64,000 nucleotides of DNA, from the NCBI GenBank assembly GCA_024195265.1, contig JAJLRJ010000013.1, positions 5,692,112-5,756,111 on the forward strand, in the 5' to 3' direction. The notes beneath the pieces were generated by a model that saw only the letters and a list, made by a program, of their open reading frames with translations, was not told the origin of the DNA and did no database searches. This document shows, in pieces, positions 10,601 through 56,279 of this stretch (within the stretch, counting starts at the first letter, position 1; each line of letters begins with the position of its first letter). The translations under genes and the position numbers were made by a program. The DNA is from Dendrophyllia cribrosa (taxonomy: Eukaryota > Cnidaria > Anthozoa > Scleractinia > Dendrophylliidae).

Positions 10601-13600
10601 TGTCGTGACACATAAGCATTGTCTATTCTGAATCTGCCTTTTTTAGAATCATTATGGGAATGTAAATAATAGGGGAAAGGTGAAGAAATAACCACCTGAT
10701 GACTGAGTTTTCTTGAGTTGTCTTTTTTTTCTGCCTGGAAAACTGTGTCTGCTTAACTCTTTCTTTTTTTTTAACCCAAAACTTCTGCCTGTGATGAACA
10801 AAGTTTCACCTGCTGGATATTAATTTTTAGCTACAATGTACATCCCAACATAAGTTGACCCACACAAATGCAACTTCTAATAATGTTATACTCCTTTTAA
10901 TATTATAGCACTGACTCTGTGACTTCATCATATGGAACAATCTATACTCCTAACTGGCCACTTAAGTACCCTGAAAGCACTTCCTGTGTGTGGACGTTCA
11001 ATCCTCCATGGCCAACAACAACGATTGTTCGTTTTTTTTTCACTGGCTTTGATTTGGATAAAAACCCTACCTGTAATCCCAATAGGCCTCCTGAACTTTA
11101 TGATTTTATCAGCATTAGTGGTGAGTTGAAAAGCAGCAACTCAGGTTTGCGAGACACTGCTAAAAAGATTTAACTTACAGTCAAACCTGTATTATGCGGA
11201 CACCCTCAGGACCCTCGCTAGGGTCCTCTTTATATTAAAAGGATTTCACTGAATACAGGTTCGTTTTACAGTAAACATGGGAAGAAAATTTACATTGTTG
11301 GTATCCAAGCTGCCCGAGTCCACTTAATAGAGGGTGTTGCTAAATAATAATATTGCTGTACTTGGGTCCGTTTAGTACAGGTTTTGCTGTATTTAAGTTG
11401 TATTGGTTTAGACCTCGTATTCTTTAATAATTTGCAATTAATTGTTAACATTATTATTATAAACAAGAGGCTATGCATAGCCTATGCTCATGCTGGTAAT
11501 GTACAACTTACTCGCAGGGGCGTAAAATAGCAACATTCAGTCTAATTAACAAAACCAAAAAAGATTTGCTTCAGTCTGCTTGCATGCTTCTGTATTCTCG
11601 TACCCAGATTTAATGCAATATACCAAATAAGAGATGAAAATGCGAATAATAAAAAGAAAAACGGAGGGTAAATCTTGCCTCGTTGCCGTATCCGTCATGA
11701 GTAAACAGCAACAAAAAAAAAATGTTTTGCTTCTGCTTGCATCACACCATTAATCCCAGGTATCGTGGGCTCAATTATATTCTCGCAGTGCTTGCGTGTG
11801 TATTCTCATACCCAGATCTAATGCGATGCACAAAAGTAGATACGAAAACACAAAGGAAAACAAAAAGAAAAATGGAGGGCAATCCTTAACTTGTTGCCGT
11901 ACTGGCACGAGTAATAACTGTAGAAACAGTCTGTTAATATTTAATATTTATTTTGTAAACTTAGCCTAAAATCTAAAATGAATAATGCTAATTTGCCGTG
12001 AAACAATATGCACCAGGACAATAGGGAATAAAAATTCCTGGATGTGAGTAAGTCATGCCAGGTGACCTGGCCTTCCTACCTCACTTTTGGATTGTGCACT
12101 CTTCGAAGTTGACGTTTGTCGAGTTCTGCGTGACTTTTCAACGTTTGCCGTACAGCACCAGAAGCCTTGGGATTTTTCTTGGATTCTTCCATCGGTCCTA
12201 AGGGACTTTCTTCCTTCGTTCGAGATATTTGCGTTCGCTTTCCTTTTGTGTTACGTTTGCAGTTCCACGTGGCATTTGTGCCTCGCCGGTCCGGCATCTT
12301 GGTTGTTTTTTGGCGGTCTGGTGGCCTTACGAGACAGCAAGTCTTCTTCAGTTTACTTGTTTTGTCCGTGCCAGTACTTTTGGTCAAAATTTTGGACCAG
12401 GAAATCTGTTCTTAGGAACTTCAATTTGCTTGGTCGGTAAAGTATCGTGTGTTTCGATTACCTTTCTTTATCTTTTTTGCCTTTGTGGCTTATTATATAT
12501 TTTAGTTTTGGTACACGCATTCTTCGTTGCCTGTGCCCGTTCTTTGTTGACCTTGTTGTGTCATACATTTTATTTTGTTCCCTCTTTTCTTTTCATTGGC
12601 ATGTTTGCTTCAAGGGAATGAACCGTCCTCGGCAAGGCTGGTTGTTCCGCCAGAAGATTTGGAGGGTCCATCTATGGTTCACACACCATCTCTGCCGGCT
12701 GATGTCGTTTCTGAGCTGCAACGTCAGATCAAATCCAACCACGCTATTGTCCAATCCCTTAGAGAGGAATTGCGACAGGGTTAGTCATCAGGCTCAGCAT
12801 TTTCCCTTGGCCACACGTCACCTGGTGGTGTTTCCTCGGGTGGGCATACAGGTACACTTGTGGTTCCAGGAACCTCTGGGATCCCAGAGGATAGTATTTC
12901 TGTTTGCGGAAGAGTCAAACATCCAGGAGACTAATGCTCAGGGAGCCTTGTTCAGGCATCCCTTGGGCATTGATTTGGATGTGGAGCCTTACCTGTCACA
13001 GCCCACTTTGGACACTCGCACGTCAGGTTTTGTGGAGAATGTCTCTTACGTTTCAGACTTACTTCAGCTTCAAGGGAACTGAAGAGAGATGACTCTGCAA
13101 ACTTTCGTAATATGAGCGAGCAGTTGTTGTCAACTGAAGGGGAGGCACAGAGCACTACCTCCCTGCCACCCTCTCACTCACTAGTCTTGCCCATTGGCTG
13201 AAGGAAACCAACAACAGGTTACAGGGCGCTGAAGACACAAAGGGTCTTAAACAGCACAGAGACTCCCTCCAAGCGAACCACAAGGGCATGGTAGGTTTGG
13301 AAGTGTTCTCTGTCACTAGACATAATATTTTTCCATCTTTGTCATACCATATTCACGGTCACATTGTTGAGTCTACTCCACACGTGCCAGATGCTGACCA
13401 TGACCTGCTGGCCACAGCAGAAATCTTGGTCACTCTCAAGGCTTCAGAGTTCAAAGCCATCGACTCCCTAGTCAGGAGTTCCCTGAGTGCTCTGTCTTAC
13501 ATTAAGCATTTAGATGTTGCCTCCACAAAACTCCTTCAGCAGTTTCTCTTGGAGGTGGGCCAGAATAATCAGGAGTCTCGGTCACCGCGTGCCCAGATGT

Positions 13601-14162
13601 TACTCTACCTCAAGTCAGGGCTTCTGATATTACGCGATAAAAAAATGGAAATTATGCGATAAACAAGGACTGTTATGCGGAAAATTATGCAAATTATGCG
13701 ATTTTTTATGAAACTTTTTTATGCATGTTTTACTAGGTTTCAGAGGAAGAAAACTAAAATACTTGTTTTAAAACGGTGCTCGCTATCTTTGTGGGACATT
13801 TTGAAGCTTTTAGCTATGAAGGAACATCCAAAACGAATGACAGAATCCAAGAAGAGTCTGTAAAACAAGCGTCCATCTTGGTTAACCTTAGTAACCAGGC
13901 TAAATAAACCATGTGCTCAAGAAATTTACGCGGTTACCAAGCTTGTTGTAGCCAAGAACGAACGCAGTTTCGATGGAAAGTGGCGGTTTGCTTATTTGAT
14001 ACAGGATAATTCAATAGAAAAAAACAAATTTTAGCTAAGTTTCTTAGCTAAAGCGATAGTGTATCATGTAGTTTGTTCACATTATGCGATTTTGTGTGAT
14101 TTTTTACGAATTATGCGATTTTTCGTGAATTATGCGATCGGATGCGATTTGAGGCCGATTAT

Positions 14163-14193
<31 letters not shown>

Positions 14194-17100
14194 CCCTGTC
14201 AAGCTGTCGCAGGCTAGGGCCCTCTCCCATCTTGCCAACATTGAAGCTAAGCTTCTGGGTAGTGTGGTGCTGGCTAGGAAGGACTCTTTTCTAGCCCGTT
14301 CCAAAGTGGCAGGGGACCAGCAACTCAAATAACTACCCGTGGACCACTTTGACGACCCACACCTCATTGTTTGCGGGTCAAGTCACACCTGTGGCCAAAG
14401 AGCTGGCGGAGCGTAAGAGGCGCCCACCAGTCCTTCACAACAGGAAGGCCTCAGACTCTTCCACTCCTGCAAGGCAGTAGGACTACTCTCGTGTCATGCG
14501 GGCAAAGCTCAACCTGCTAAGCCCCATAGCTCAACTCAACCTCTGCGAGCCTCCTCTACTGGAGTGACAGCAAGAAAACGTAGGGGCCACCAGACCCAAG
14601 GGGGCCATGCAAAGAAGCCTAGAACAGGACCAAAAAAAAAAACTTCCTACTGGACAGGGTGGTGGCCTTCCCCTGTCCAACTCGTCAATTTACAGTAGAC
14701 CTGCCGCTTACCTCAGATCCTGTGGGTAGCTGCCTGTCCCTTTTTCTGGACTCTTGGAGGTCCATGACAAAGGACCAGTATGTCTTGCTTCTTCTTCAAC
14801 ATGGACTTCATCTCTGTTTTGAATGTCAGCCACTATTGACCACCAGCCCGGTGCCCTTCCCGCTGCCAGAGGCCAGCAGCAAGAAAGAGCATCTGAGGGC
14901 CGAGATTCTTTCCATGTTAAAAAATGGAGGCCATCGAGAGGGTGGTGAACAAGTCCTCTCCAGGGTTTTACAGCCTGTTGTTTGTGATTCCCAAAAAGAA
15001 CGTGAAACTTCCGTTGGTCATCGACCTGCGATCACCGAATCATCACTTATCAAAGGAGAAGTTTCACATGGTAACACCCACAAATCTGCGCCACTTCATT
15101 TAGAAAGGGGAGTGGGTAGTCTGTGGATTTGACGCATGTGTATCTGCATGTTCCAATCCACCCATCGTCCAGGAAGATTTTTTGGTTCCTCTATCGGGAC
15201 GAAGTATTCCAGTTTTGGGTCCTGCCCTTCGGATTGTCTGTGGACCCAAGAGTCTTCACCCGTGTCGTGGATGCCATGATGGCCCACATTCGATCTCTGG
15301 GCTTACAGACTCATTATTATCTAGACAACTTTCTTCTGAGGAACCAGCAGTTGGACCACCTCAGGACTCAAACTCAAGGCCTTCACTTCTTGCCTTGGTT
15401 GGGCACCCAGTCTGGAGAAGTCAGAGTTTCCCCAACTCAAGACTTTGTCTTTATCGGCACACATTACCAAACCGATCTAGGGTTTATGTTTCCTCCAGTG
15501 GTGCAGTTCAGAGAAGCAGCCAGTCATGCTAGCCGGGTCCTCCTGGCAAAGTATGTTACAACTCGGGACTTTCTCTTGCTGTGATGTTTCACTTAGACAA
15601 CAGCTCAGCAGTTGCCTACCTGCAGATGCAAGAGGGCACTCACTCGCTGCCCATGTTTCACCTGGCGTGGGAAATCCTCCTGAAGTACCAGCTGCAGGGT
15701 ATCAACCTGTTAGTGAGACATTCAAGGTCATCTGAATGTCCTAGCCGACGGTTTGTCGAATGCTTCTGGTAGTGCCACTTCAACATTGCCAGCCGTGGCT
15801 TCCAGTGCTATTCGGGTCGCTAGTGGACTTTCGTCGGGAGGTTCCCACATTGCCATAACTCCTGAGACAACCTCAGTCATGAGTATTTCACAGCCACGCA
15901 GAGCAGGTTCATCTGTTCGCATGGAGCTTATCAAGCGTGGCTTGCATAAGAAGACAGTTTTCTGAAGCAGTTGCCCACCGTCTCTGCCAGACAGTAAGAG
16001 CATCTAGCGCCGGTACAGTACAGCCCAAAAATAATGCACCCGCAAGAAGTGGTGCAAGAAGTTCTTGCGCTGCAAGAAGTGAAAATGCCATGTTCTGCGG
16101 TTTACTCGCAAGAACATTCGAAAAGCAAGAAGTTGAAATTCTAGCCACAAGAAGTTATTTAAGTACCTTAGCCTCAAGAACCTGCAAGAAGTAACCTGGT
16201 CCAGCCGCAAGAAGTGTATTTATTCATTTGGCTCATATCGAAGATAGGAGAAGTTACAGGCTCTAGCCGCAAGAGGTTTGTAGCGTTCGTGTAGATGATC
16301 GGAGCAAAAGTTACCAGGTCCAGCAGCAATAAGTTTATACAATGTACGTGTAGCGCTCGTGTTGATGATCCAAGAAGAAGTTACAGGCTCCAGCCGCAAG
16401 AAGCTTAAAGTATGTGTCAATGATCGGAGAAAAAATTACTAGGTCCAGCAGCCAGAAGTTTATACATGAAGCGCTCAATTGTGTCGATCGGAGTTACACT
16501 ATCAGGACTTTGTAAGCCATTCATCAGCCGTTCGAACCGCTTGAACTTGAGTGATAAAGATTGAAATTCCCCGCATAGAGCATAGATTCTAAATGCTAAA
16601 AATGAAAAAGTGATAAATTTCGATGCTGTTCATATTGATGGTTATACCGACGTTTCGATAATGCTGCCTTCTTCAGGCTACAAAACTAAACTCGAGCTAT
16701 CAGTTTAAAAGAAACGTCAGCCGTTCGTACGGCTCTAGCTATCCGCTCCAAAATAATCGTCAGCCGTTCAAACGGCTTGAGCTATATGTTAAAAAAAAAT
16801 GTCGGCCGTTCAAGGGCGCCGGCTAGTCGCCCATGTTACGAACTTTGTAAATATGCATTGTTTATAAACACCTCATGAATAGTCACGGTTCTTTTCCTGC
16901 TCCTTAGCCATCTTCGCTTTCATAACATTTGATTAACGATACGCTTTTTTTTTTCAAGACTTATTAAGTTTTATTCAGCAAGATAAAACTTAAGTTTTAT
17001 TGAACAAGTTTCCCGAAAATGTTTCAATCTTTGACGGTATGCAAATATTTGATTTGAGCGCTTTTCATCATGTTGGTTTGAGGTCCAAAGATATCTCCCG

Positions 17101-29100: not shown

Positions 29101-31178
29101 ATTCTTAGAGTACATTTAGTCATTTATGAAAAATACAAATAATTGCGAACACAATATTATTTCTGAAATCGGAAAAAGTAATTAGGATAATTTTGACCAG
29201 AATGGGCCCTCATATTTATATTAAGTAACGGTCCTTTTATATTTGTATTCATTTGTCTTTTAGCCCCCATAGAAGGAAATATTGGGCAAATATATTCAAC
29301 TGTTTTTTTTTATTTCACTTCTGTCTCAATGTCTTCTCCTTGCCGTAAGGATCAGTTTGCCGTTTTTACTTATAGCTATTGTAAACTATTTCAAGATTTT
29401 TACTGATCCAGGCCTACGATAGATCCGGTACTCTTCATTGGTTTGTCGCTGTGGTTTTGCTGTTATAACAGTTTTTGATTTAGTTTCATACGGGCAGCCG
29501 CTAAGTTAGACATTGTAGACTCAGCACAAATCGCCACCTATGCCCACCCCAACGAGGCAGCTAAATTTTTTAATTACTAAACGCTTCCGATTCCCCATCT
29601 TCTCGGGCATAATCTTGTATCAAATGCCCTACTACAGTATTCCCTTCTAATCCCCACCTTGTCCCATTTTTGTTGACTCATGCATAAGAGACTACTAATT
29701 GTAACAAACGCGACATTCTTTAGCGCGACAATACAAACATTAACATCATTATAATGTCCAACAAGGAGAAAGTTACATTCAACTACACGTCTAGTTAGCC
29801 TTCTATTTCCTCTCTTAATTTAAACATGGTGGTAAATCTGACTGCATCAAGCAATACCATTGTCCACATTTAGCTGCTGTGATATTTCCGATATTGTGTT
29901 GTAATGCTTGCATCAGCAACTGTCTGCTATAGTTGCCAAGAGAAATTCCTTGCCCTGTTGCCTCTAGTCTATCATTCATCTGTGCCTTTACCTCGGGCCA
30001 AAGTTGGTGGAATTTTCAGGTTGTTTTACTCATTATTTGGTCGTTTTAGTTCTTATTTCTTTGCATTCATCTCTTTTGCCGATTTTTTTTTTCCTACAGT
30101 AAAAACCCACATAAACGAACCTGTGATTTTCTGTGGCAGGGTGAAATGGTTCTTACATGTATTTATTACATGACTAAGACAGATAGCTGGAGGGCCAATA
30201 ACTAAAATCAACCAATCAGAATGCTCTATTGCCGGGCATTGTCCCAATGATCCCACCTGATCCTCTTGCTGGCAGGAGTCATGTAATAAATCTCTTATTA
30301 ACCAAGCTTCCTCGGGACCGTACTGAGAGAATATCAGCCCTTGGTCTTTTTTGTACGAACCGAGTGGCACTCCTAGAGGGCCAATAACTAAAATCAACCA
30401 ATCAGAATGCTCTATTGCCGGGCATTGTCCCAATGATCCCACCCGATCCTCTTGCTGGCAGGAGTCATGTAATAAATCTCTTATTAACCAAGCTTCCTCG
30501 GGACCGTACTGAGAGAATATCAGCCCTTGGTCTTTTTTGTACGAACCGAGTGGCACTCCTAGAGGGCCAATAACTAAAATCAACCAATCAGAATGCTCTA
30601 TTGCCGGGCATTGTCCCAATGATCCCACCCGATCCTCTTGCTGGCAGGAGTCATGTAATAAATCTCTTATTAACCAAGCATCCTCGGGACCGTACTGAGA
30701 GAATATCAGCCCTTGGTCTTTTTTGTACGAACCGAGTGGCACTCGGTCCGTGCTGTCAAGACCTAAGGCCGATATTCTCCCATGCCAGTACAGCCATCGT
30801 GCTTGGTCAATAACATATATATATATATATATATATATAAACTTGATTTGTAAAGGTCAAGAAACCAACTCCAATTTAAATTAACGTTTTAATTAGCTCG
30901 ACGTTTCGGCCGTCTCGGCCTTCCTCAGGAGCGTTATGATGATTTTACAGGTAATTCAACATAAAAGCTTCATGTAACGGAAAATAACGACTAACGTCTG
31001 TGTGACGAAAAGGTAAAACATAATTCTATTGGCCAAAACAAGGTTTTGCAACATTTAAACTAACTATTAACTATGTGTCACCGGAAAAAGCGAGTGACTT
31101 ATGTGACAAAACGGTAAAAGAAAATTCTAGAACTAATCCGCGCTTATTAAGTTAAATTGTTTATCGCAGGTTTTAATC

Positions 31179-32798: not shown

Positions 32799-33262
32799 CT
32801 TATGCTGTGTTCACATCAAGACCGAAACATGTTTTAGAGTAATTTCATTGTTCACATTAGTTGTTAATTTCAAAACATGTTGCACGTCTGGTTCTATAAT
32901 TTTTGCTGTTTCACATGCATAAGCTCACATAAACTCTTTCCAATTACACACAAACAGATAAAAATAGAGCTTAAAGTTTTCATTGTATGATATTTGTGGT
33001 TCAGTTTCACCTATCAAGCTCTTCAGGAACAAAGGGCAATGCATTATTTAACAAGGGGATGACATTTGCGCTAACATGTTTCGTCTGGCGTAGATCAAAA
33101 CTACCTTGTGAGGTAGTTTCAATTATGCTCAGAATAAACATCTTTCGATCATGATTTGTGCAATGCGCCGCCTGATGTGAACACTTTTCATAGCAAATCA
33201 TGTTTCATTTGTGATCAGACTAAACATGTTTCACTTTAGTGTTGGTGTGAACACAGCATAAG
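32799..33262. mobile_element. 464-bp MITE with TATGCTGTGTTCACA ends
   Basis: Left TTATGCTGTGTTCACATCAA, right TTGGTGTGAACACAGCATAA. Internal AAACATGTTT motifs. The same ends bound the composite at 49357-53726. Confidence 0.75.
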
Positions 33263-33269
33263 TTCACCA

Positions 33270-34030
33270 AATAAGTAAATGGTTGCAAGCTAAGTTCTCC
33301 TAAACAGGCATGATGGCCTATCCTATTTTTTAAACTTTTTTTTCTGCATAATTTTGGTGAAGAATTCATTCTCTTTAAGCTAAAATAGTTGCATTGTCCT
33401 CAGAGATTTTCAGCCACAATATATAACAAATAAAATTAAAGAGGCAAAAACTTCACTTAAAAAAATAACACTTTATAACATGATCATAAGGGAGATATTA
33501 ATCTAAACTGATTTAAAAGAGCTACTATATAATTTTAGTGACCGTAAAAATGTGAACACTTTTTAGCATCATCAAGTTAAAAAATAACACCAAATTAATG
33601 TCATTAATTAAGACTAAATAAAGCTAATTAATATAAATGATAAATGTTCATAACAATGTTCATTACAATGAAGCATTTTTGGGAAGATATCAATGACGTC
33701 ACCAATTGTTATTAATGTGCCAACCAGAGCCTTATTGGCTGCCGAAACAAAGGGTTCTTTTGTTCCAATGGTTGGCACATTTGAATAACAAAAAGAATGT
33801 TTGTAAACAGATAACATCCCTATAGAAGATTACATGTGTTCAAACCATTAGTTTAACATAGACAGAATCAGACAGCATTCTAAAGCTTTGTTTTCACTAG
33901 TGACATGAGCATAAGCGGAAGCAAAGGCTATATACAGGTTCGACTGTATCTCCGAAAGCTAATTAACTTAGATACACATATACATAAATAACCATTAGAT
34001 CCTTAATTGACTAAACAAACAAACAAAACA
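33270..34030. other. AT-rich spacer with one small inverted repeat
   Basis: AATGTGCCAACCAGAGCCTT pairs with CAATGGTTGGCACATTTGAA (33715-33785). GTTTTCACTAGTGACATGAG near 33890 recalls the end of the palindrome at 3260. No gene seen. Confidence 0.4.
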
Positions 34031-34033
34031 AGG

Positions 34034-34333
34034 TCAGCAAAAATTACAACAGGTGTTCATAAAAGACGAAGTATTAAGTAAAACTTTAAAATCTTCAAAA
34101 ACAGTAGTTGATCTAATCTTAGCTGGTAAGTCATTCCAAGTTCTAGGCACAAAGTATCTAAAGGAATGTAACCCATATGATGTCGTTGAGACCCGTGGTA
34201 TGTTGAACTTGTTTGTTCCTCTAAGTCCTGAGTTGACAGATCTTGATACCAGCAGGTCAGATAAAGTTGTGTGCATATTATTTTGTAAACAAGTGAAGGT
34301 ATTGTAGCATAGTTTTGACGAAAATATTGCCAA
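34034..34333 (-). pseudogene. C-terminal fragment of a LINE reverse transcriptase
   Basis: Reads SYGLHSFRYFVPRTWNDLPA then KIRSTTVFEDFKVLL, the conserved end of many LINE RT proteins. It is cut off 5' and stands about 130 bases from the assembly gap. Confidence 0.6.
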
Positions 34334-34463
34334 AATTCCCGTGACACTGCCCTCTGGAAACCTTCGAAATTTGCTAACCAGTTCATCCAGAAAGTGGGTA
34401 ACTAAATATAGCGCTTTGTGAAACCCAACCAGAAGTGCATAAGTCCCCTACATTTGCCCACAT

Positions 34464-34963
34464 NNNNNNNNNNNNNNNNNNNNNNNNNNNNNNNNNNNNN
34501 NNNNNNNNNNNNNNNNNNNNNNNNNNNNNNNNNNNNNNNNNNNNNNNNNNNNNNNNNNNNNNNNNNNNNNNNNNNNNNNNNNNNNNNNNNNNNNNNNNNN
34601 NNNNNNNNNNNNNNNNNNNNNNNNNNNNNNNNNNNNNNNNNNNNNNNNNNNNNNNNNNNNNNNNNNNNNNNNNNNNNNNNNNNNNNNNNNNNNNNNNNNN
34701 NNNNNNNNNNNNNNNNNNNNNNNNNNNNNNNNNNNNNNNNNNNNNNNNNNNNNNNNNNNNNNNNNNNNNNNNNNNNNNNNNNNNNNNNNNNNNNNNNNNN
34801 NNNNNNNNNNNNNNNNNNNNNNNNNNNNNNNNNNNNNNNNNNNNNNNNNNNNNNNNNNNNNNNNNNNNNNNNNNNNNNNNNNNNNNNNNNNNNNNNNNNN
34901 NNNNNNNNNNNNNNNNNNNNNNNNNNNNNNNNNNNNNNNNNNNNNNNNNNNNNNNNNNNNNNN
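34464..34963. other. 500-base assembly gap
   Basis: All N. The round size suggests a placeholder. It lies within a tandem repeat, and 3' exons of the caspase-like gene could be hidden here. Confidence 0.95.
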
Positions 34964-35240
34964 AACGTGACACTACTGGTTCATATTCCCCACCCAACCC
35001 AGGCAAAGTTCAAATTCCCCAACCCCTGGTAGAAAAGGAGTGAATCATGAGTGAAAACGTACATTTTGGTGAAAAGTGATTGTGGATTTACACTTCAACA
35101 AACCCTCCGACAACAATGACGTGTATTCCGATTCCGTCGGACATGAAAAAAAAAAAGGAAATGTTAAACGTGACACTACTGGTTCGTATTCCCCACCCAA
35201 CCCAGTCAAAGTTCAAATTCCCCAACCCCTGGTAGAAAAA
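34964..35240 (+). repeat. Direct repeat of period about 203 next to the gap
   Basis: AACGTGACACTACTGGTTC and CAAATTCCCCAACCCCTGGT occur at 34964-35033 and again at 35167-35236, almost unchanged. Confidence 0.8.
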
Positions 35241-36287
35241 AAAATTGTCAAATGTCCGGGGTATTCCCAGTGGGATGTTGAAGCTTCCAATTGATCGGCG
35301 CATAATTCCTGTACAGATTGACCAATCTGTAACAGTGTACCTTTAGCAACGAATACTCATTAACTCTAACAGTTTGTTTTTTTAGTTAAAGTCTTTAGTA
35401 AGCTGGTCATACAATTAGTCTTTTTTGGGTTATAAGCCCTTTAGCTTCGTGTTTTTTTTTTTACCAAGTGTATTTCCACCCGCGCAAACCATCCTTATAA
35501 GCTGTTTGCTAAACCTGCAAAGTGCAATCCTTTTAAGTATTCTTTTCCTATCCGGATCGTACGTGACTAGGATAGTCTACCAGGATCTGTTGTTGGAGCC
35601 GGGAGTCTGGACCAGTTCAGGAGTGGGATTAGGTGTTTCCTCAACATGAACTAGTCACTCAGCCATTGTTAGGGATCGTTGGGGTTCGTTCTTGGGCTGG
35701 TTTGGGCTGTTGGCTTCGGCATTACACCTTGGCTAATTTATATATTTTATATTGTACATAGCTCATACCTGTTTTATATTACTTTGGCCACATCATCGTT
35801 AAGCCTTTGAACCTTTTATGCACAGTCAAACCAATACATATTAAGTGTAGCTGTACTTTCCTGTCATGCTGTTTGTCTTTCCATATTTTATTGTGGGTCC
35901 TTTTTGCAGAAAAATAGTTAAAAATAACTGCATAATACAAACCCAGTTGCCTTCAAATTAGTTTACCTCTTAAGGATATTATAGGATATCCTTTTGCCTT
36001 CTCGTTGCGTCTCATCAATAACGTCTACCAAAGCGGATGTTAGACAGCCACATCTAACTCCAGTGCCGGGGCGTTTCCCCTCCCATGCCCGTTCATTGGA
36101 GCTACTAGCTGCAATGCTAATGAATTTATCATGGTCTGATGGAGTCCAACCCTGGGAAAGCAGCAATGGGGTCCAGAATTCCTGGACTGGTTTCTGTAGT
36201 CGTGTATGTTGATGCATTAGACTTGGAGACTGAGTTTCTTGACAGTGTTCATACTCCGTTGGTTGCTAATAAATCAACACACAGACG

Positions 36288-36290
<3 letters not shown>
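35240..36290. other. No gene recognised; possible retroelement debris
   Basis: The stretch contains CCAACCCTGGGAAAGCAGCA and CAGTGCCGGGGCGTTTCCCC without a clear frame. A direct (TA)n tract follows. No claim of function. Confidence 0.35.

Positions 36291-36291
<1 letters not shown>

Positions 36292-36345
<54 letters not shown>
36292..36345. repeat. (TA)n microsatellite
   Basis: About 27 TA units, directly before the hammerhead palindrome. A similar tract is at 36608-36646. Confidence 0.95.
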
Positions 36346-36348
<3 letters not shown>

Positions 36349-36380
36349 CCAAGAAGGAAAATCACTCAACTTTGATGACC

Positions 36381-36439
36381 ATAAGTTCAATACAAACTTG
36401 TTTCGTAGGTGTTGCCACCCACTCCTCAGTTAAACTTAC
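36381..36439 (-). ncRNA. Type I hammerhead ribozyme sequence (minus strand)
   Basis: Stem I GTAAGTTTAA/TTGAACTTAT. Core CTGAGGA at 36429-36423 (fits CUGANGA). Stem II GTGGGTG/CACCTAC with GCAA loop. GAAA at 36404-36401. Stem III CA/TG with loop AGTT. TA before the cut between 36391 and 36390. All invariant bases present. Confidence 0.75.
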
Positions 36440-36455
36440 CACTTACTTATTTCAG

Positions 36456-36514
36456 GTAAGTTTAACTGAGGAGTGGGTGGCAACACCTACGAAACAAGTT
36501 TGTATTAAACTTAT
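36456..36514 (+). ncRNA. Type I hammerhead ribozyme sequence (plus strand)
   Basis: Stem I is 10 bp, GTAAGTTTAA (36456-36465) with TTAAACTTAT (36505-36514). Core CTGAGGA 36466-36472; stem II GTGGGTG-GCAA-CACCTAC 36473-36490; GAAA 36491-36494; stem III with loop AGTT; cut expected after TA at 36504. Confidence 0.8.
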
Positions 36515-36605
36515 GGTCATCAAAGTTGAGTGATTTTCCTTCTTGGATTATTCTGCTCCTACACTGTAGAGCACTTTATTGGATTCGCCGGTGAATCTTC
36601 AACTT

Positions 36606-36646
<41 letters not shown>

Positions 36647-36649
<3 letters not shown>

Positions 36650-36765
36650 CAGTTTGCAAAAATTTTGACCCCCCCAAAATATGTCATTATATCCCTGCTA
36701 TATATATTTGGATATAATGATATATTTTGGGGGGTTCAAAATTTTTGCAAACTGCTGTATATATA
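36647..36765. mobile_element. Short palindromic MITE
   Basis: CAGCAGTTTGCAAAAATTTTGA at the left and its complement CAAAATTTTTGCAAACTGCTG at the right; arms about 50 bases. Flanked by TA-rich DNA. Confidence 0.8.
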
Positions 36766-36869
36766 TATGAAATAAAAGGAAATAAAAGCCCGCTATAATA
36801 AGAAACACCAGAAACTTTGTGACGCCAGGGGCATCAACGTTCTCGAGGTTAACCAGGTCACAATGAAAC

Positions 36870-37100
36870 ATCTTTATTTATATAGGCTTAGCTTTGAATA
36901 TAATCAAGAAACTTTGCTCCACGTTGTCTCTCTTCACCCAGGTGTATAAATGGGTACGGGCGACATAATTCAAGGGGGCAACATTACAATAGACTAGCAT
37001 CCCATCCAGAGGGAGTAGTAATACTCTCAGTCGCTTCATTCTACAGAAACCAGGTTAAGCTCTGGCAGTTGTGAGCCATTAGGCTTGTGAAGACTTAACG
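36870..37100 (+). mobile_element. SINE-like dispersed repeat, copy 1
   Basis: Contains ACCCAGGTGTATAAATGGGT, GACTAGCATCCCATCCAG and TACAGAAACCAGGTTAAGCT; an inverted, diverged copy lies at 43945-44200. Confidence 0.6.
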
Positions 37101-37496
37101 TTTTGAATATTAATAATGATATTCTCAAAAGTTAAAGAATTTTGAATTACGAATATGATGGATTGCTTTTAACTTGTAACACTTGACAACAGTTTTTGTT
37201 TTCTCGGGCAAATGTGGGCTATTGTTATTTGAATCTCCCGGGGATTATAAAACAAAATTTACATAAGGAAAAACGAAATGAATTCTGTTAGTTGTAGTAA
37301 AATGACGCCATCAGTGAAATGGCCTGTTAGTTTTTATCGGTAAAATATATAGTACCCTTTGTTTCATGGTTACAGCCACCTGATCATGTCGTCGCTGCAA
37401 TTTTTCCTTTCGTAAACAAGCGATGCCATTTTAGCAACACTTTTCACCAATTATCGAATTATGTTTTCTATCAGAAAAAGAAAAATGTAATTAATT

Positions 37497-37580
37497 ACCT
37501 AGAATTGAACCCGGAACCTCTGCATGCTAACACCCGTCTTTTACTACTAGACCACTGGGTTGATCCGGCAACCCAAGAAA
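37497..37580 (-). pseudogene. tRNA-like sequence (SINE head or tRNA relic)
   Basis: On the minus strand AGTGGTCTAGTAGTAAAAGAC (A-box-like) and GGTTCCGGGTTCAATTCT (B-box-like) are spaced as in a tRNA, but no closed acceptor stem forms. Confidence 0.45.
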
Positions 37581-37866
37581 AATTTAAATATAAAAAGTGC
37601 TTTTCTTAATGACACATCTATAACCCTAATCATATTCCTAGATCTAACCTAATCGCGCGCGAATCTAGCTTAGGTGTAATAATCGCTTCCCCCAGTTTTA
37701 TCTAATAATGATAGCCTACTTTCATTCCAATCCAGGCATAAACTATAGAGAAATGGCATCGACCATTACAAAAGGTTTGGTTACTAATGAATGTTAATGA
37801 TGGCATCGACCGTTAAAAATGGCATCGCTTGTTTTCGAAAGGGAAATCGGCGTCGTCGCTACAGAC

Positions 37867-38140
37867 CGTTAAGGTGAAGTTATTCCGGCAACAACATTGT
37901 GCATCTTGTCGCGCAACAATGTTGCATGGCAGATTGCAGCCCTGATGTTGCGCGTATTACCACCCACGCGCGCAACAAAGTTTCATGTTGCAGAAAGTAG
38001 AAGCGACGTCTACTTTCTGCAACATGAAGATTTGTTGCGCGCGTAGGTGGTAATACGCTCAACACCAGATCTGCAACTTGCAACGCAACATTGTTGAGCG
38101 GCAAGTTGCATAATTTTATTGCCCGTGTTACTTCACCTTA
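37867..38140. mobile_element. Palindromic MITE with GTGAAGTAATACGGGCAAC-type ends
   Basis: Starts AAGGTGAAGTTATTCCGGCA and ends TTGCCCGTGTTACTTCACCTT. The centre AGTAGAAGCGACGTCTACTT is a hairpin tip. Long arms pair with few mismatches. Confidence 0.8.
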
Positions 38141-38280
38141 AAGTGAAGTAATACGGGCAACGCAATTGTGCAGCTTGCCGCGTAGGTGGTAATACTTGTA
38201 ACATCAGGGCCGCCACTTGCAACTCAGCATTGTTGCACGTCATATGCATGAACATTTTGCCCGTATTACTTTGTCTTTAG
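38141..38280. mobile_element. Second, shorter MITE of the same family
   Basis: AAGTGAAGTAATACGGGCAA to TTGCCCGTATTACTTTGTCT, abutting the first copy. Only 100 bases from the probable exon at 38380. Confidence 0.75.
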
Positions 38281-38379
38281 GACAGGCGGCTGTATTTACC
38301 GGCTAGTGACATATGAAAGACCATTTTCATTTATTTATTTATTTGATTTAATTTACGTATTTATTTATTTGTTTATTAC

Positions 38380-38481
38380 CTCATCGTTAGGTTCAATTGG
38401 TTGTTTTTCAGACGGTTTGATCTGGCATCGGGCTTTTAATATCTTGCGATACTCTTGCATGTACTCCTTGGAAAATGAAAG
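38380..38481 (-). CDS. Probable later exon of the caspase-like gene
   Basis: On the minus strand a pyrimidine-rich acceptor ending TCCTCCACAG and a GTAATA donor enclose 34 open codons in phase 0, the phase used by the other exons of this gene. The translation (starts LSFSKEYMQEYRKIL, ends EPNDE) is charged and helix-like; I do not recognise a domain. It could belong to another gene. The link is inferred from strand, phase and position. Confidence 0.42.
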
Positions 38482-41400
38482 CTGTGGAGGATATTAAAAG
38501 CAGAAGCAACAATCGAATCACTGCTCGAAATTGAAAGCTCTGAAGAAAATAACTTGCGATTCACATTGTACAATTCGGAAGTCTAAGTTCTAAAAAACTT
38601 TTATTACTAAACTCTGACGATAGCCAGGAAAGTTATCCACTGACAAATGGCTTGATTATGAAGCTGTATCTGGCTAAAATCAAGACACATTGTCTCCCGT
38701 ATACTTGTTTCTTGTCTTCTACGCATTTACAGGTGCGTTGTTAATAGTTCCATGTTGTTTCTTCAAGAGACACTGTCCCACCGAAATGACAAAATTTCGC
38801 TTATCTTCAGTATTTCCATGTTATATCGCTAAATACTAGCAATGCACAACTTAATTGGATAAAAAAATTCCAGAGAGCAAAACAGAAGTAGTTGTTTGGA
38901 GATACAGTGTATCGTGAAGGATTGCAAGGATGGAAGTGGATTACATTTTATCAAATTTGATTTCGTGACAGGCGGTCAAGTTATCAAAATTCCCATTCTT
39001 GTTGAATTTTGATTTTTTTTAGGCGTTGTTATGTCAATAGAAAGCATAACCAGCGGACGTGAATGGAAACTTACTCCCACCGTGGCACAAGGGTGGGAGG
39101 GGGGGGGGGGGGGGTATTGTTTTGCGGTGTTACAATATTTCTAAAATAATTTACATCTAATAGATAGCCTATGATGTGCCCTACAAGATAAGGTAAATAT
39201 TATGGGTTGTAGCGCTGCTGGGGGTCCGTGACGTCATCCAAAATGGCCGACAACATGGCCGCCATCTTGGATTTTTCTAAAAATTCAACTTTATCGGGAA
39301 AATGCGGAAATTGCAATTATTTTTTGCTAGAGTTGCAAAATATGATACAATTAAATATTTCGCTGGTTTTGGTAACATTTTATATGTTTTTTTTGCACCG
39401 AAAAAAATGTAAAATACACGCATTTTTATTAAAAAATGGCATGACCTCATGCTGCTTATGACGTCATAAATTGTTGCCATAGCAACCAGTTGTCGCCAAA
39501 CATTACTATAATGTGTTAAAAGGATAAACGAACCGCTTTCGATAAAAAATATTATTTTAACGACTTGACTATTACAAATTTACAAACAGCCAGGAGCCGA
39601 TAAACCGCCAAACGACCGAGCTCATAGCTTATGCAGATTTGAAAGATTTTCGTAAAAATTGGCCAAAACATTCCTGGGATAAAGATGAATAAAACCATGT
39701 TAGTAAATTTTGATATTTAAAATATTTTTCCTGTCGCAACCCTTTATGAAACACGACTCGAATATTTTTAGCTTCTCCAAATTTAGATGCAGATATCTTT
39801 CTAATAAATCAGATCTATCCCTTGTAAATAACACTGTGCAGCTATTTCGTTCCTGTCGTGGCATTCAATCCCCGATAAAATCAATTGAACAGCCCTCGAT
39901 CGTTTGGCGGTTTATAGGCTCCAGGCCTTTTGTAAACGAAGACATCTTTTATTAAGCTTTCTATGGATATATAATTTGTCATATTACTCTTAACCCTTTC
40001 ACTCCCAGAGTCAATTCGGGAGACATGAAGTGTACTTCTAATTTTTGAGTCTGTGGATGAAATCCTATGGTGAGACCATTCAAATGAAACCTCTTCGGCG
40101 GTACTTTTGCATGGTACCATTTGTTTTTCAATATTTCACAAATGAATTTTGGAATTTATCTTGAATTTTGATGTTTGGAACTCTTGGAAGTGAAAGGGTT
40201 AAAACTGGCGTGTGTACGAATTTTATTGCGAAGGACACCCGCGAAGGTTGGAGGGACCCTTAAAGCAAGCTCCTGGCCACATCATGAAAACACAATATAC
40301 AGTATTAGCCAAAACAGCGTCCCTTTAAATTCGAATTTGTTATGTGAGTAAAGCGTATTTACTTGTATCCCGGGGACGCAAAGGGTCCTTACGTTTATGC
40401 TTTTTTTGCGCGTAAAGGCCAACCATGGTGCTGGCCAACATGTTGCCTTCGGCATGTACTGTAACAGTTGTATATCAACCTCGTTCCCAGGGCCTTCTCC
40501 GCTTTGAAATTGGCGGAGCGGGCGCAGAAACCCCTGCGTAAGCCTGCCAATATTCTCCAAGAATCGTTATGTTTTTTGTCATGTGAAACATGACGAAATG
40601 GCGTTTTCGAAGGATATTTCCAACGATTGGTAGCCATATATCTTTTCTGGTAATCTGAACCCGTTGTTCAAACGAAACGAAGACATTCCATTATGTTTCA
40701 CGCGATAAAATATGCCAGGATATTTGGAGTATATCGACAGTCTTTTTCAGGGTGTTCTTCGCCCACCCCGCCATTTTCAAAGGAGAAGGTCCTTGCATGG
40801 ACGAGCTTGCGTGCAGAAAAGCCCTTGTGCGGAGGTTACCTGTTTCACAGCTGGAGTATCGCCGTCTGATTCCAAGCCGAATCCTCGGTACATGCGACCA
40901 GAAAAACAGCAATCAAAAATGGTATTGACCAGGCAATCTTTTCTTATTAACTTCAGTAGGTGGGGCTTAAAATGTTCGCCTGTTATACACACATCATAAA
41001 TGCGATACTCGTCAACCTGGGGAATTATTATACAATAAACATTTAAAACGTGCAACAAATTTGCCATGCTGTAGATGTAATAATGACCAGTGCATTATGT
41101 CATCCAGTTGTCTCGTTTCACACCATGTATATTTATGTCACGCTAAGATGTTTTCATCGTTTTAAATCTGTTTTCAATTCTTTGACTTCAAAATTAAAAC
41201 GGATGCGTGGACTTCAAATGGATTTTTCGAGACTTAATAAAACGCTACAGCACGATAAACGTTTTTGAATGTATGAATGTGAATATACATGTATGAAAAT
41301 CATATATTTGAACTGCGGAAAAACACGAGGGGGACACTGCGAGATAAACACTGATATAAACGAGATAAACACTGCGAGAATCACAAATTTCCCTCGTGTT

Positions 41401-43586
41401 TTTATAAGTGTGGTCTGCGAGAAAGCGCTCGGGCTGAGGAACATAACATGAACCAAATTAATTTTGGCTTGAAACGCTAAATTAAATAACATGTCTTCGC
41501 GTGACTGAGAGCTGGGTGACGTAATAATTTAAATTTGTTTTATACTTGTCAATTAATTCTTTGACTGGTCTGTGAAACAACAAAAAGCTAAGATCGACCA
41601 TAAGGAACCCCCACGTTATTTGTAAACTAAAAATGCTTATTTTATATGTCTTATTCATAAAAACCTAAAACCGGATGTTTAAAAAGGAAAATATTAACGC
41701 AAACAGCAACGGATAAAATCGAAAAACCGGAAATTTTGATTGCAAAAACCCAAAACCTGATCTAAAAAATGCCGACGAAAACCGTATAACCGACAACCAC
41801 AACTCCCCCCTCTATTATCTGTCTCCGAATTTTATTTATTAGAAAGGATTCTTTAGCGAGCGCTCTATAGATTATTATTATGAGCCGTTTGAGTGAATTG
41901 TTGGGAGAGCTCCTGGGACCTTTCCGCAGATGTCCGCGTTTGTTTCTTATGGCCCTGTCACACTATTGCGTATCGTACTAGCGTATTCCGGCGTACGAAA
42001 AATATCCCTCATACGCTAGTATACGCTGACATACGCTAGGAGTACGTTAGGCATAGGTTGTATACGTTTCAAGCAGGGTCGTTTACGGTGGCATACGCTG
42101 GCATTCGGCGAGGCAGAATTTTTTTTTAAGCATGCTTAAAAATTTTGTGCGTATTCGGACGTATGGTTTATACCCTAAACATACGCTAGGCATACGCTGA
42201 ATACGCGAGAGTTACGCCAGAGGTACGTTACTCATAGGTCAGGTACGCTGGTCATACGCTGTATTCTCAAGGAAATTTTGTGCGTATGAAAATTATTTTA
42301 TAAATTTTCATACGCAACTCATACGTTTCTTTAAATAAATACGCAATAGTGTGACAGGGCCTTTACATAGATTCAATTTCCCTAATTTGGGTTCGTTGCT
42401 ATCGTGGCCGGGGTCGGGGATTTGTTACGTTCAGAATTTTACGGTATAAGCCGATATGTAAAAAAAACTTACCGTTTCCTTGGTGAGATCAGCAGGAAGT
42501 ATGCCTTGGTCAAAGTACTTGTCATTAGTTAAGTCTTCTTCTAATTGATATCCATGGCCACTAAAGTAAATGACCACCACAGACTCATTCTCTGCCATGG
42601 ACGACAGTTCATCTAACGTGCGTAATATATTGTCACGGGATGCCATATCACCCTCTAGTTCCTGCAATATGCAACAAAAACTACCATAATTAGTTTAATT
42701 TATATTTTTATTACGGTCAACTTTCAAATGTTGCTTCCTGCAACTACTTCCTCTAATCTCTAATCTTAATCTTTCTGCACACTTTCTACAGGTGACCGAA
42801 GCAGTTTCTTGTTGTAGCAAATGTATTTTGTCAGATTTTCCTAGAGAGTCACTAGTTAGTATCTACCAGTAGCATCCACACTACATCGTAGGAGCGGGAG
42901 GGGAACCTGAGTGAACAGGGGAGGCGTTTGAAACTGAACCATTTTTCTGGCCTTTCAAGCCTTAATGTTCGGTAAGATAAGCGGGGTGGGGGTGCCAGCT
43001 CCCCTGGGCCACTCCCCTGAATCCGCCACTCCCTACATGCATTTAGACACCTGGACAAAGAGACAATGTGGATCACAGTTTCTTATCTACATGTAAATAC
43101 AGGGAAGACATTGATCAAACCTCAAATTAACAATCTGATTAAGAGTCTGAAATCTTCACTAAGCCCACAATAACATAATTATCATTGTAAGCCTCCAGTA
43201 ACATCATATTAATCAAATCACAAACCATAATATTCTCCGGGTGGAGCCCATTCCCACTGAGCATGTCTCTCATAATTATCATAATTATCATTGTAAGCCT
43301 CCAGTAACATCATATTATTCAAGTCACAAACCATAATATTATCCGGGTGGAACCCATTCTCTCTGAGCACATGTCTCTCATAATTATCATAATTATCATT
43401 TTAAGCCTGCAGTAACATCATATTAATCAAGTCACAAACCATAATATTCTCCGGGTGGAACCCATTCCCACTGAGCATGTTTCTCATTAAGCGCAGATCG
43501 TTTTGGACACCGTCAAGTTGAACAAACTCGCCAAGATCTGGAGCATAGCTTGGGCCTATCAAAAGTGCACGCTTTACAGTAGACAT
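38380..43586 (-). CDS. Caspase/metacaspase-like (peptidase C14) gene, 3' part incomplete
   Basis: Exons on the minus strand: 43440-43586, 42473-42661, 40840-41016 and, less surely, 38380-38481, all phase 0 with GT/AG borders. The joined start shows the C14 fold in order: a beta strand VKRALLIG, LDGVQNDLRLMRNML, the His strand VVVIYFSGHGYQ (His about residue 85) and the Cys strand NTIFDCCFSG (second Cys about residue 149). Metacaspases usually read DCCHSG; here the residue after the Cys pair is Phe. Cys proteases of this fold act in cell death and related signalling; the substrate is unknown. Exons for the small-subunit-like half were not found and may lie below 38380 or in the assembly gap. 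The gene is convergent with the CUB gene. Confidence 0.72.
38640..39010 (+). repeat. Dispersed repeat shared with 60600-60745
   Basis: GAGCAAAACAGAAGTAGTTG, GGATTGCAAGGATGGAAGT and TTTCGTGACAGGCGGTCAAG recur inverted at 60620-60740. Confidence 0.6.
39120..39500 (+). mobile_element. Family-B MITE, ends lost
   Basis: Shares GATAGCCTATGATGTGC, GGTCCGTGACGTCATCCAAA and TGGCCGCCATCTTGGATTTT with the complete copy at 52733-53106. A poly-G run (about 39098-39115) precedes it. Confidence 0.7.
39588..39930. mobile_element. MITE with GCCAGGAGCCGATAAACCGCC ends
   Basis: The left end pairs with GGCGGTTTATAGGCTCCAGG at the right, including TCGATCGTTTGGCGG. Confidence 0.65.
39991..40200 (+). mobile_element. 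Family-A MITE, complete copy
   Basis: TTAA then CCCTTTCACTCCCAGAGTC at the left; ACTCTTGGAAGTGAAAGGG then TTAA at the right. TTAA duplication with CCCT tips is the hallmark of piggyBac-type insertion. Confidence 0.85.
40476..40830. mobile_element. Element with CAACCTCGTTCCCAGGGCC end
   Basis: Starts CAACCTCGTTCCCAGGGCC, contains TTCTCCGCTTTGAAATTGGC, and the right part has CCGCCATTTTCAAAGGAGAAG in inverse orientation. The same tip is at 1758-1836. Confidence 0.5.
40840..41016 (-). CDS. Caspase-like gene exon 3: catalytic Cys strand
   Basis: Acceptor ATAATTCCCCAG, donor GTAACC; 59 codons, phase 0. Begins VDEYRIYDVCITGEHF, then a helix and NTIFDCCFSGRMYRGFG. The second Cys of DCC is the expected nucleophile. 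A TE with the CCTCGTTCCCAGGGCC end lies just downstream in the intron. Confidence 0.78.
41947..42362. mobile_element. 416-bp TIR element in the caspase-like gene intron
   Basis: Ends GGCCCTGTCACACTATTGCG and CGCAATAGTGTGACAGGGCC. The interior has many ATACGCTAG-like words on both strands. Confidence 0.8.
42473..42661 (-). CDS. Caspase-like gene exon 2: catalytic His strand
   Basis: Acceptor TTGCATATTGCAG, donor GTAAGT; 63 codons, phase 0. Contains a helix (NILRTLDEL), the hydrophobic strand VVVIYFSGHG with the catalytic His, then YQLEED and DQGILPADLTKET. These match the large-subunit region of metacaspase-like proteins. Confidence 0.82.
42850..43045 (-). mobile_element. Unclassified DNA-transposon-like fragment
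   Basis: The minus strand contains AGTGGCGGATTCAGGGGAGT and GGGGAGCTGGCACCCCCACC, a tip motif common in dispersed animal DNA transposons. Confidence 0.4.
43190..43490 (-). repeat. Triplicated end of caspase-like exon 1
   Basis: Three units of 106-108 bp (anchors ACAAACCATAATAT at 43220, 43326 and 43434). The unit includes coding bases for LSGNGFHPENIM, the GTTTGT donor and following intron. Only the 43434 copy is attached to the exon; the two others have one or several changes. Confidence 0.8.
43440..43586 (-). CDS. Caspase-like gene exon 1
   Basis: Starts MSTVKRALLIG at an ATG on 43586, the usual beginning of a C14 core, and runs 49 codons to GFHPENIM. The donor is GTTTGT. Exon 2 then continues ELEGDMASRDNIL, matching the common pattern NI-x-V-L-x-x-x-A-T-R-x-N-I. 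The last third of this exon with its donor is repeated twice more in tandem downstream. Confidence 0.75.
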
Positions 43587-54335: not shown

Positions 54336-54340
54336 TAAAA

Positions 54341-54364
54341 TATAAATTGGATCATTCATTGTCA
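54341..54364 (+). promoter_or_regulatory. Possible TATA box and initiator of the secreted-protein gene
   Basis: TATAAAT at 54341-54347 is followed 23 bases later by TCAGTTT (A at 54364), which fits an initiator. The spacing is slightly short. The leader to ATG 54444 would be about 80 bases. TTATTACAG just before that ATG also looks like a splice acceptor, so a spliced leader is an alternative. Confidence 0.35.
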
Positions 54365-54443
54365 GTTTCTCAACGCAATTGTGTACGAAGTGAGCGAGGC
54401 ATTAATGAACTGTTTTGCCTTGTTATTTTTATTACAGGACCGA

Positions 54444-56279
54444 ATGGCTGCACCAAAGTCTCTTTTCGTGGTGGCATTGTTGGTATTGGCCGTAAACCGC
54501 TTGGAAAGTAAAAGCCTCAAGGGAGAAGCTCCAGTGAAAAGAGCGATCGATCCTGTCAGCGTAATAGGCGCAGTTGTGAAAGTTGCAACGACTATCCACG
54601 GTGCTGTCTGTTCCTTTACAGATATCTGCGGTGGAGACGACGAGCTCACACAGGCACTGGAAAAACTGGAGGAGAAGTTGGATGCTATCCATAGCGATGT
54701 CATTTCCATCAAGAAAGATGTGGAAGATATCTGGGATGAATCAAAGCGGAAATGGTACTTCAAACACATCGAGTACATTGTCGACCAGAGGAAGAAGGTG
54801 ATCCATGACTTAGAGAACAACGACAATTCTGGACGGGCTGAGCTCACACGACAACGATTCATCAATGAGGTGTTTGGTGAAGTAGGAAAAGACGAGTACG
54901 TTGAAAAGGCCCTTTTTCATATCCCAATACTGGTCACTAAAGAGGGACTTATCACCCATCACTTTGATGTGCAGATCAGAAACGGCAAATCCACCATGGC
55001 AGCTGCTAAATTGAATTGGGTTTTTATAAGAAAACTATTCCGTTATCAAGAGGATGGCTACGCGTCTGTTGTGTTGGCTGCCACCATAAAGTACAAAAAC
55101 GACGAGGCTTCTTACAAGAAAACGATGAGGGAAATCTGTTCGTGGTGGCCAAAATCAAGAGATCCTGAGTACGAAACGTTTTGCACTAAATTTAGCAAAA
55201 ACCCGGCCTCCCAAGACAGACGAAAACTCCAGCAGGACTTCATCTTTTCCATAAGAGATCTAGCCCTTGTTCCTGTTCAACTAGAACAAACTGACTGCAG
55301 TAAATTCAAGGACTCGGACACCCTACTCTTTTCAACTGGATATCTGTATGTTGCTCAACCTGACGCTAAGAAGATCTTGATCGTTAATCGAGAGACATTG
55401 GATATTGCGAAGACAATTAATGTACCTGGCTTAGAGTGCGGTGGAAATTGTCATCCATTCGGTATAGCTATCAACGCAGAGCACAAGGTGATGGCACTGG
55501 CTGCCCAAAGCAAAACGTCCGGAGGAGAAAGCAAGGTCATGATGTTTAAGATAAAGGGAAAGCTAGAAGAACCAAGCGGAATCACCATCGAGCACTACTT
55601 TACTAAGTTCCAGTTGATGCAACCTGGACCTAAGAGACCCGATGTAAGAGGCATTGCATTTTGTGGAGAGCGTTTTGCATACGCGGATTACAACGGTGCC
55701 ATTTGGAACTACAGAATGCGTTGGGATGATTCCAATCCTGAGCCAAATTTATGGGACCGCTATGACTGGGACTTAAACCGAGTGTATGGAACGTACAAAG
55801 GCAACACTTACTATCTTGGCTGCTCAAACAGCGGAAGAGACTGGGTGGTGGAGAAAACTGACTTCGGTTCTGACAGTGATGGTGTAGGAGCCGTGCCCTC
55901 TGATTCCAGTGCAAGATACACAGACAAGATTCTGGACATTGCTGAAATAGCGGTGAAGATGCCGGACTGGTACGATGTAAAGGACGGGCGCTCGCGGATG
56001 GATAAATTAAAAGGAATAGCCATGGATACCAAAAGAAACCTCTTTTATTCCTCTGAGCAGTCTTTTTATGGAAACAGCGTTAGTGGAGTCTACCAACGCA
56101 CGTACGATGGTAAACGCCACTACATAAGAGAATGGAATGCAGAAAGCAAAGTGAAAATGTTTGGTATGGCGGTGGATGACAGCGGATTCCTGTTCTCCGT
56201 GCAGAAGGATGGATCAGGTAGCAAATGCCTTCACAAGTTTCATCACGAAATCGACTTGGAAGATATCACTGTACCTTGA
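54444..56279 (+). CDS. Secreted protein with helical N-half and propeller-like C-half, intronless
   Basis: One open frame of 611 codons from ATG 54444 to TGA 56279. Residues 1-24 form a signal peptide (basic start, LFVVALLVLAV core). Lys-Arg at 32-33 may be a propeptide site. Residues about 38-62 are hydrophobic with two Cys; about 66-97 form a heptad-like coiled coil (LEKLEEKLDAIHSDV). Helices continue to about 290. From about 300 on, repeating short segments such as GYLYVAQPDAKK, PFGIAINAEHK, VRGIAFCGERFAYAD, LKGIAMDTKRNLFYSS and FGMAVDDSGFLFSV resemble blades of an NHL/SMP-30-type beta-propeller. I do not recognise the family and assign no function. An in-frame ATG at 54405 would add 13 residues. 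Codon use is even and there are no breaks, so it is probably expressed. AATAAA follows at 56347. Confidence 0.9.
   Translation: MAAPKSLFVVALLVLAVNRLESKSLKGEAPVKRAIDPVSVIGAVVKVATTIHGAVCSFTDICGGDDELTQALEKLEEKLDAIHSDVISIKKDVEDIWDESKRKWYFKHIEYIVDQRKKVIHDLENNDNSGRAELTRQRFINEVFGEVGKDEYVEKALFHIPILVTKEGLITHHFDVQIRNGKSTMAAAKLNWVFIRKLFRYQEDGYASVVLAATIKYKNDEASYKKTMREICSWWPKSRDPEYETFCTKFSKNPASQDRRKLQQDFIFSIRDLALVPVQLEQTDCSKFKDSDTLLFSTGYLYVAQPDAKKILIVNRETLDIAKTINVPGLECGGNCHPFGIAINAEHKVMALAAQSKTSGGESKVMMFKIKGKLEEPSGITIEHYFTKFQLMQPGPKRPDVRGIAFCGERFAYADYNGAIWNYRMRWDDSNPEPNLWDRYDWDLNRVYGTYKGNTYYLGCSNSGRDWVVEKTDFGSDSDGVGAVPSDSSARYTDKILDIAEIAVKMPDWYDVKDGRSRMDKLKGIAMDTKRNLFYSSEQSFYGNSVSGVYQRTYDGKRHYIREWNAESKVKMFGMAVDDSGFLFSVQKDGSGSKCLHKFHHEIDLEDITVP

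Follow-up and report, generated by a model that had tools for sequence, protein, structure and literature searches.

Head-to-head hammerhead motifs in Dendrophyllia cribrosa as a probable short insertion of a young Penelope-like element

Two hammerhead ribozyme motifs lie head to head in a 64-kb stretch of DNA from the coral Dendrophyllia cribrosa (hereafter the window). The segment that holds them, 36347-36607, is probably a short insertion of a young Penelope-like element (PLE), with two cDNAs presumably primed on the two opposing strands of a (TA)n target and then joined at their ends.

Hammerhead motifs and the architecture of the insert

Both motifs contain the catalytic core and three stems of a type I hammerhead. 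The plus-strand motif consists of a straight 10-bp stem I with no internal loop, the sequence CTGAGGA, a 7-bp stem II capped by a GCAA loop, the sequence GAA and a short stem III, with a GUA cut site at 36504/36505. The minus-strand motif, with its cut at 36391/36390, has the same layout except for one U.G wobble (36507 A against G). The original prediction of complete hammerheads on both strands proved exact in its coordinates, and the motif parts were found by a structural scan. The ten-base pairing that it described on either side of the core and cut corresponds to stem I in both arms, with the wobble in the minus arm, and the (TA)n tracts that it placed on both sides are present as (TA)29 on the left and (AT)19.5 on the right. 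Within the window, the scan found these two motifs and no others. Applied to 200 random 64-kb sequences from a second-order Markov model, it returned one match with a stem I of at least 4 bp and none with at least 6 bp, so that the occurrence of the motifs is beyond chance.

Covariance scoring was less favorable. The same prediction had named comparison with the Rfam type I model as a check, with scores below threshold to be taken as evidence against it. The two motifs score 22.3 and 21.5 bits against a gathering score of 34 for Hammerhead_1, which by that standard counts against them, and the E-values of 0.0009 and 0.0017 are still good (two 71-base scans, 4227 families). At the gathering threshold, the whole window gives one Rfam match, a tRNA, and no hammerhead, and a permissive scan of 36200-36850 has no hammerhead among its 81 matches. 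A search of viral contigs with the hammerhead core gave 0 matches. A weak resemblance to the arm at window positions 241-273 was set aside, given that no hammerhead is visible there by eye.

Each motif sits in one arm of a 97-bp inverted repeat with a single mismatch, the arms being 14 bp apart (Table 1), and for this reason the two hammerheads can be treated as one event. The flanking TA tracts look as if a single microsatellite had been split by the insert. The insert lacks the TATAAA box of the long element copies, and a search of all six frames of 33000-41999 gave no Pfam match that would place an element body near it.

Table 1. Features of the insert and its flanks, in window coordinates
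Feature	Position	Strand	Basis
(TA)29, left half of presumed target microsatellite	36289..36346	.	repeat call
Left arm, antisense copy of presumed PLE mRNA 5' end; outer few bases blend into (TA)n	36344..36440	-	
CTTGGAT, outer end of left arm; putative proximal reverse-transcription start site	36347..36353	-	
Hammerhead ribozyme motif	36381..36439	-	structural scan and Rfam sub-threshold score
Joint between arms, 14 bp; matched by no other fetched pair	36441..36454	.	
Right arm	36455..36551	+	inverted repeat
Hammerhead ribozyme motif	36456..36514	+	structural scan and Rfam sub-threshold score
CTTGGAT, proximal start site copied through in right arm	36542..36548	+	
56-bp tail, right arm only; separates the hammerhead from the ORF in tandem PLE units	36552..36607	+	
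CTTGGAT at tail end; putative distal start site	36603..36609	+	
(AT)19.5, right half of presumed target microsatellite	36608..36646	.	repeat call

Other repeats occur in the window. The same TA array holds a separate palindrome at 36636-36768, with 59-bp arms and the ends CAGCAGTTTGCAAAAATTTTGACCCCC, that is probably a miniature inverted-repeat transposable element (MITE) and that we take, by its look, to be Tc1/mariner-like. A 394-nt inverted repeat that is 100% complementary (4498-4891/5046-5439) is overlapped by one of 142 nt (4270-4411/4491-4632), the whole spanning 4270-5439. The reading frames at 12441-15584 presumably belong to a DIRS-type element, which they resemble in motif. A 186-bp tandem repeat at 30190-30744 has three copies, 99% alike, with one frame open, and a run of 500 N at 34464-34963 is an assembly gap or masked stretch. 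For the 646-aa frame at 54339-56279, 34 homologs were found among 7994 scored candidates; the species named for them are Oculina patagonica, Desmophyllum pertusum and Paramuricea clavata, which fits a stony coral or a close relation as host.

Copies in the genome and the link to a Penelope-like element

The exact 30-base core of the motif occurs 228 times in the genome (627 Mb, 22 contigs), and its reversed control 0 times. A 204-bp query (36346-36549, the tail being outside it) gave at least 88 matches with 40 of 242 candidates scored; the short pairs come from this query, and their tight joints are therefore partly selected. Thirty-eight loci were fetched, which together with the window supply 29 head-to-head pairs. 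The arms are 99.6% identical on average (71 arms, 29 pairs), and the joints comprise 25 distinct strings in the 29 pairs, with the two longest counted as one. Given near-identical arms and different joints, the pairs look like separate insertions; L043 and L044, which have flanks in common, are probably a single event. A near-pure TA run is found in the 20-base flank on at least one side of 25 of the 29 pairs, and on both sides of 14.

In 28 of the 29 pairs, the tail is confined to a single arm. The exception is L019, flagged as tailed on both sides, where the left side matches at 42/56 and a tandem of 130-bp units enters Ns. The rule also holds in all seven longer pairs that were read; these are close head-to-head neighbors from a probe for the PLE 3' end, with an eighth, C5, left out for its partial partner. 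Among the first 100 of the 228 exact cores, 26 neighbors within 10 kb are head to head and 0 tail to tail, and 41 cores have no neighbor. Head-to-head spacing is 47-80 bp in 10 of the 26, 151 bp in one, and 500-4390 bp in 15, with the two at 500 bp probably one duplicated event. Direct neighbors in this set number three at 2425-2460 bp and two at 130 bp.

A few loci depart from the simple pair. At L020:4839-5226, a single TA array holds three arms, of which one has a mutated core and lies tail to tail with the arm next to it. Seven lone tailless arms with identical flanks (L011-L014 and L016-L018, around 4900-5080) read as one insertion that was multiplied within another repeat. L019:4811-5289 contains a 130-bp tandem whose units, made of the arm and 34 nt of the tail, meet after TTGGATT and are then inverted, which could reflect template jumping or be a trace of RNA circles. 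The hammerhead families of L042 and of L009/L019 keep the core and differ from the window in stem II, and L042 also differs in stem I; read by hand, these changes fall on both sides of pairs. At L042:1330-1461, this third family again forms, as judged by eye, a head-to-head pair flanked by TA tracts, and just one of its sides has additional sequence.

In longer copies, the arm adjoins the frames of a PLE. At L009, the arm (5007-5102) follows a reverse transcriptase (RT) frame (2545-3960) and an endonuclease-like frame (4170-4946), and L010 has the endonuclease end, arm and tail again on the opposite strand. The tandem units (3/3 read) are made up, in this order, of hammerhead, CTTGGAT, tail, CTTGGAT and an ORF starting MERT. 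The tail matches at 56/56 (L059) and 55/56 (L061) by script, and the order in L060 was read by eye, since a substitution made the script miss the arm end. The pLTR organization with tandem units is therefore present, as the three direct neighbors at 2425-2460 bp attest, and so are inverted head-to-head pLTRs with an optional tail, as in PLEs. The original prediction of a terminal piece of a PLE or a retrozyme stands for the PLE, given that the arm adjoins PLE frames in sister copies; a retrozyme is unlikely.

The RT frame has 4110 homologs with E ≤ 0.001 among 7997 scored, the best being 90% identical. The AlphaFold model of one homolog, P0035 (90% identical over 93% of the RT ORF), has a mean pLDDT of 83.9, and its four best PDB fold matches are all telomerase (E 3-7e-8, TM 0.32-0.36). 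This predicted fold points to a telomerase-like reverse transcriptase, as expected of PLEs. Sequence profiles are less informative: Pfam names no RT family for the frame, NCBIfam gives no match above cut-off and one RT match below it, in L019 (E 0.0026), and a PDB sequence search with the frame gave nothing useful. We read YIGLTANEFKTRW, in the ORF at L009:4170-4946, as a candidate GIY-YIG motif. Pfam reports GIY-YIG below cut-off in L019 (E 0.051) and P0057 (E 0.018), with no match in the L009 ORF itself. About 270 bp at L009:3957-4225 are missing in 3/3 fetched copies that span the site (L062, L063 and L066). The PLE 3'-end probe drew 141 candidates, of which 40 were scored to give at least 43 matches. 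The family can be regarded as young, because 40 of these are near full length at 99-100% identity.

Ends, joints and rival explanations

The outer end of a tailless arm lies at CTTGGATTAT and that of a tailed arm at CTTGGAT, and in tandem units CTTGGAT followed by AU-rich bases stands at both end positions, upstream of the ORF. In six long centers (L007 and five fetched separately), the inner ends fall at different element positions in five, L007 being nearly symmetric, and the overlap is 100% identical over 34-744 bp in the five and 96.4% identical in L007. In 4/4 long copies (two from L007 and one each from L009 and L010), a TATAAA starts 35 bp upstream of the arm, and the two from L007 also have an initiator-like TCATT whose A is 3 bp upstream of it. 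In 48 inner ends of 24 short pairs (L007, L008, L040, L043 and L044 left out), the match to the usual upstream sequence ends 0-7 nt beyond the arm, mostly at 2 or 3. In L041, the match judged by eye runs past one substitution and well beyond 7 nt, and the window's own joint has no match at all to the usual upstream sequence. Given where this match stops, the short arms seem to reflect run-off of the cDNA at the 5' terminus of the mRNA. Such run-off would leave the promoter uncopied, and the short inserts are therefore probably dead on arrival. Several joints are self-complementary, and the 101-bp joint of L008 holds a 94-nt inverted copy of flanking DNA.

Both arms of several pairs derive from a common template, as seen in 4 pairs where a substitution that is private among 85 arms is common to the two arms. 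In eight further short pairs, substitutions are found in a single arm or differ between the arms, which is neutral between the models considered here. As a test of two templates, the L007 left-arm variant was searched genome-wide and has 2 matches, L007 and a locus with the same 500-bp spacing.

The main alternative to two separate cDNAs is self-priming, in which a single cDNA folds back and copies itself into a palindrome, as proposed for rotifer Penelope elements, there on the antisense template (PMC3846280). Substitutions private to a pair and found on both arms are what this predicts; self-complementary joints and the near-symmetric L007 also fit, and a fold-back with a large loop could yield unequal inner ends. 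A self-copy, however, would reproduce the tail state of the first arm, such that pairs should have two tails or none, whereas exactly one tail is found in 35/36 pairs, the other being L019. The second copy would also have to halt at the same CTTGGAT nearly always. Self-priming explains the shared substitutions and not the tails, and we consider it unlikely.

Corals are known to have retrozymes that carry type I hammerheads (PMC7229834). A non-autonomous retrozyme, a small repeat moving via ribozyme-made RNA circles, is a further alternative, and the 130-bp tandem unit at L019 speaks for it. That spacing is seen in only 2 of 31 close neighbors among the first 100 of 228 cores, both at L019. Non-LTR retrozymes form tandem repeats of about 150-450 bp with loop-loop contacts, whereas stem I here is without an internal loop, and the arm is joined to PLE coding sequence. 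On these grounds, this reading was rejected as very improbable. A palindromic MITE, meaning a TA-inserted DNA transposon with long inverted repeats and a hammerhead by chance, would account for a near-perfect palindrome beside TA, with another palindrome next door. It is contradicted by arms that are continuous with PLE frames in other copies and by joints that vary while the arms hardly do, rather than uniform copies with a fixed center. In addition, only one side has the tail, and the window's TA tracts flank the insert beyond it. The copies largely refute a MITE and leave it barely credible. Plain chance was rejected on the random-sequence control.

Paired priming and its relation to known elements

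For the insertion of two cDNAs, the following steps are proposed as the most probable. The PLE mRNA would start about 3 nt before the hammerhead, as the TATA box and the arm end positions suggest, and CTTGGAT would mark two reverse-transcription start sites, 38 and 99 nt past the cut site and both before the first in-frame ATG. The element RNP would nick both strands of a (TA)n microsatellite. Extension of one strand would begin at the proximal site, whereas extension of the other would begin at the distal site and so include the tail. After about 100-150 nt, each cDNA would reach the 5' end of the RNA, which is where the hammerhead lies, and joining of the cDNA ends would leave a head-to-head hammerhead pair that has a tail on just one of its sides. 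We infer the transcription start, the start sites and the dual-strand priming.

There is biochemical precedent in the lizard, where purified PLE protein is reported to cut and extend both target strands and to start internally at two adjacent RNA sites, which define the tail (PMC11167929). In the account of Anolis Poseidon PAc given there, a hammerhead near the ORF start, two adjacent internal RT starts, a tail, an AT-rich target, and cutting and extension of both target strands all have counterparts here, those of the RT starts and of strand cutting and extension being presumptive. In PAc, the hammerhead and the ORF start overlap, and RT begins about 111-118 bp into the ORF (PMC11167929), whereas here the hammerhead and both putative start sites precede the first in-frame ATG. 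Also, the PAc start site is described as not homologous to the target (PMC11167929), whereas here the AU-rich bases after the sites could pair with (TA)n. Penelope of Adineta vaga, as described in PMC3846280, likewise has head-to-head inverted pLTRs with palindromes at the joint, a tail that is optional on one inverted pLTR, and AT-rich targets; the word hammerhead is absent from that text. The present case differs from Adineta vaga in that the shortest, ribozyme-only form (97 and 153 nt) is common and that dozens of copies were counted for the one-tail rule.

PLE hammerheads are already in print, as noted in PMC7761336. In Acropora millepora, more than 6000 type I motifs are reported, 1508 of them canonical and the others minimal and PLE/Terminon-like (PMC7229834). 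The minimal hammerheads are of the same class as those described here. That study, as far as its available text goes, follows canonical tandem retrozymes, whereas the subject here is paired PLE ends. A literature search found nothing that joins a hammerhead with a palindromic inverted-repeat transposable element, and the accessible part of PMC12910113 has nothing on the paired arrangement. Hammerheads, inverted ends and an optional tail are thus established features of PLEs; relative to the literature as searched, the additions are this family, the counted one-tail rule, the frequent ribozyme-only pairs and the place of the hammerhead at the presumed mRNA 5' end.

Self-cleavage of the window motifs is doubtful, because their Rfam scores are below cut-off and a read-through RNA would form a long hairpin, predicted at -169 kcal/mol for RNA crossing the palindrome. 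For the monomer, a misfold (-17.3 kcal/mol) is predicted to be slightly favored over the catalytic fold (-15.8 kcal/mol). A two-copy cofold gives a double hammerhead with a 10-bp stem III at -39.4 kcal/mol versus twice -17.3 kcal/mol, a comparison made with no shuffle control. The earlier proposal of self-cleaving RNA from either strand holds only at the level of sequence, and is opposed by the missing TATAAA and by the preference of palindrome RNA for a hairpin. The lizard PLE hammerhead is reported to cleave only when its protein is present, and mutating it left insertion unaffected (PMC11167929). Under the paired-insertion reading, a hammerhead on each strand of the same locus needs no function there to be explained.

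More generally, and more tentatively, paired priming may be the rule for PLEs, a proposal that we hold at slightly less than even. A single RNA would offer two start sites, and each of these would prime exactly one of the two strands of the cut target. Every complete event would then be head to head with one tail, and when the 5' UTR copy of the sites is used instead of the post-ORF copy, the cDNAs would run off at the cap to give a ribozyme-only pair. Paired priming, if true, would replace the self-priming model. In a young family with hundreds of near-identical copies, the origin of PLE inverted ends becomes countable, since self-priming can be told from dual-strand priming by the tail state, inner end points and joint of every pair.
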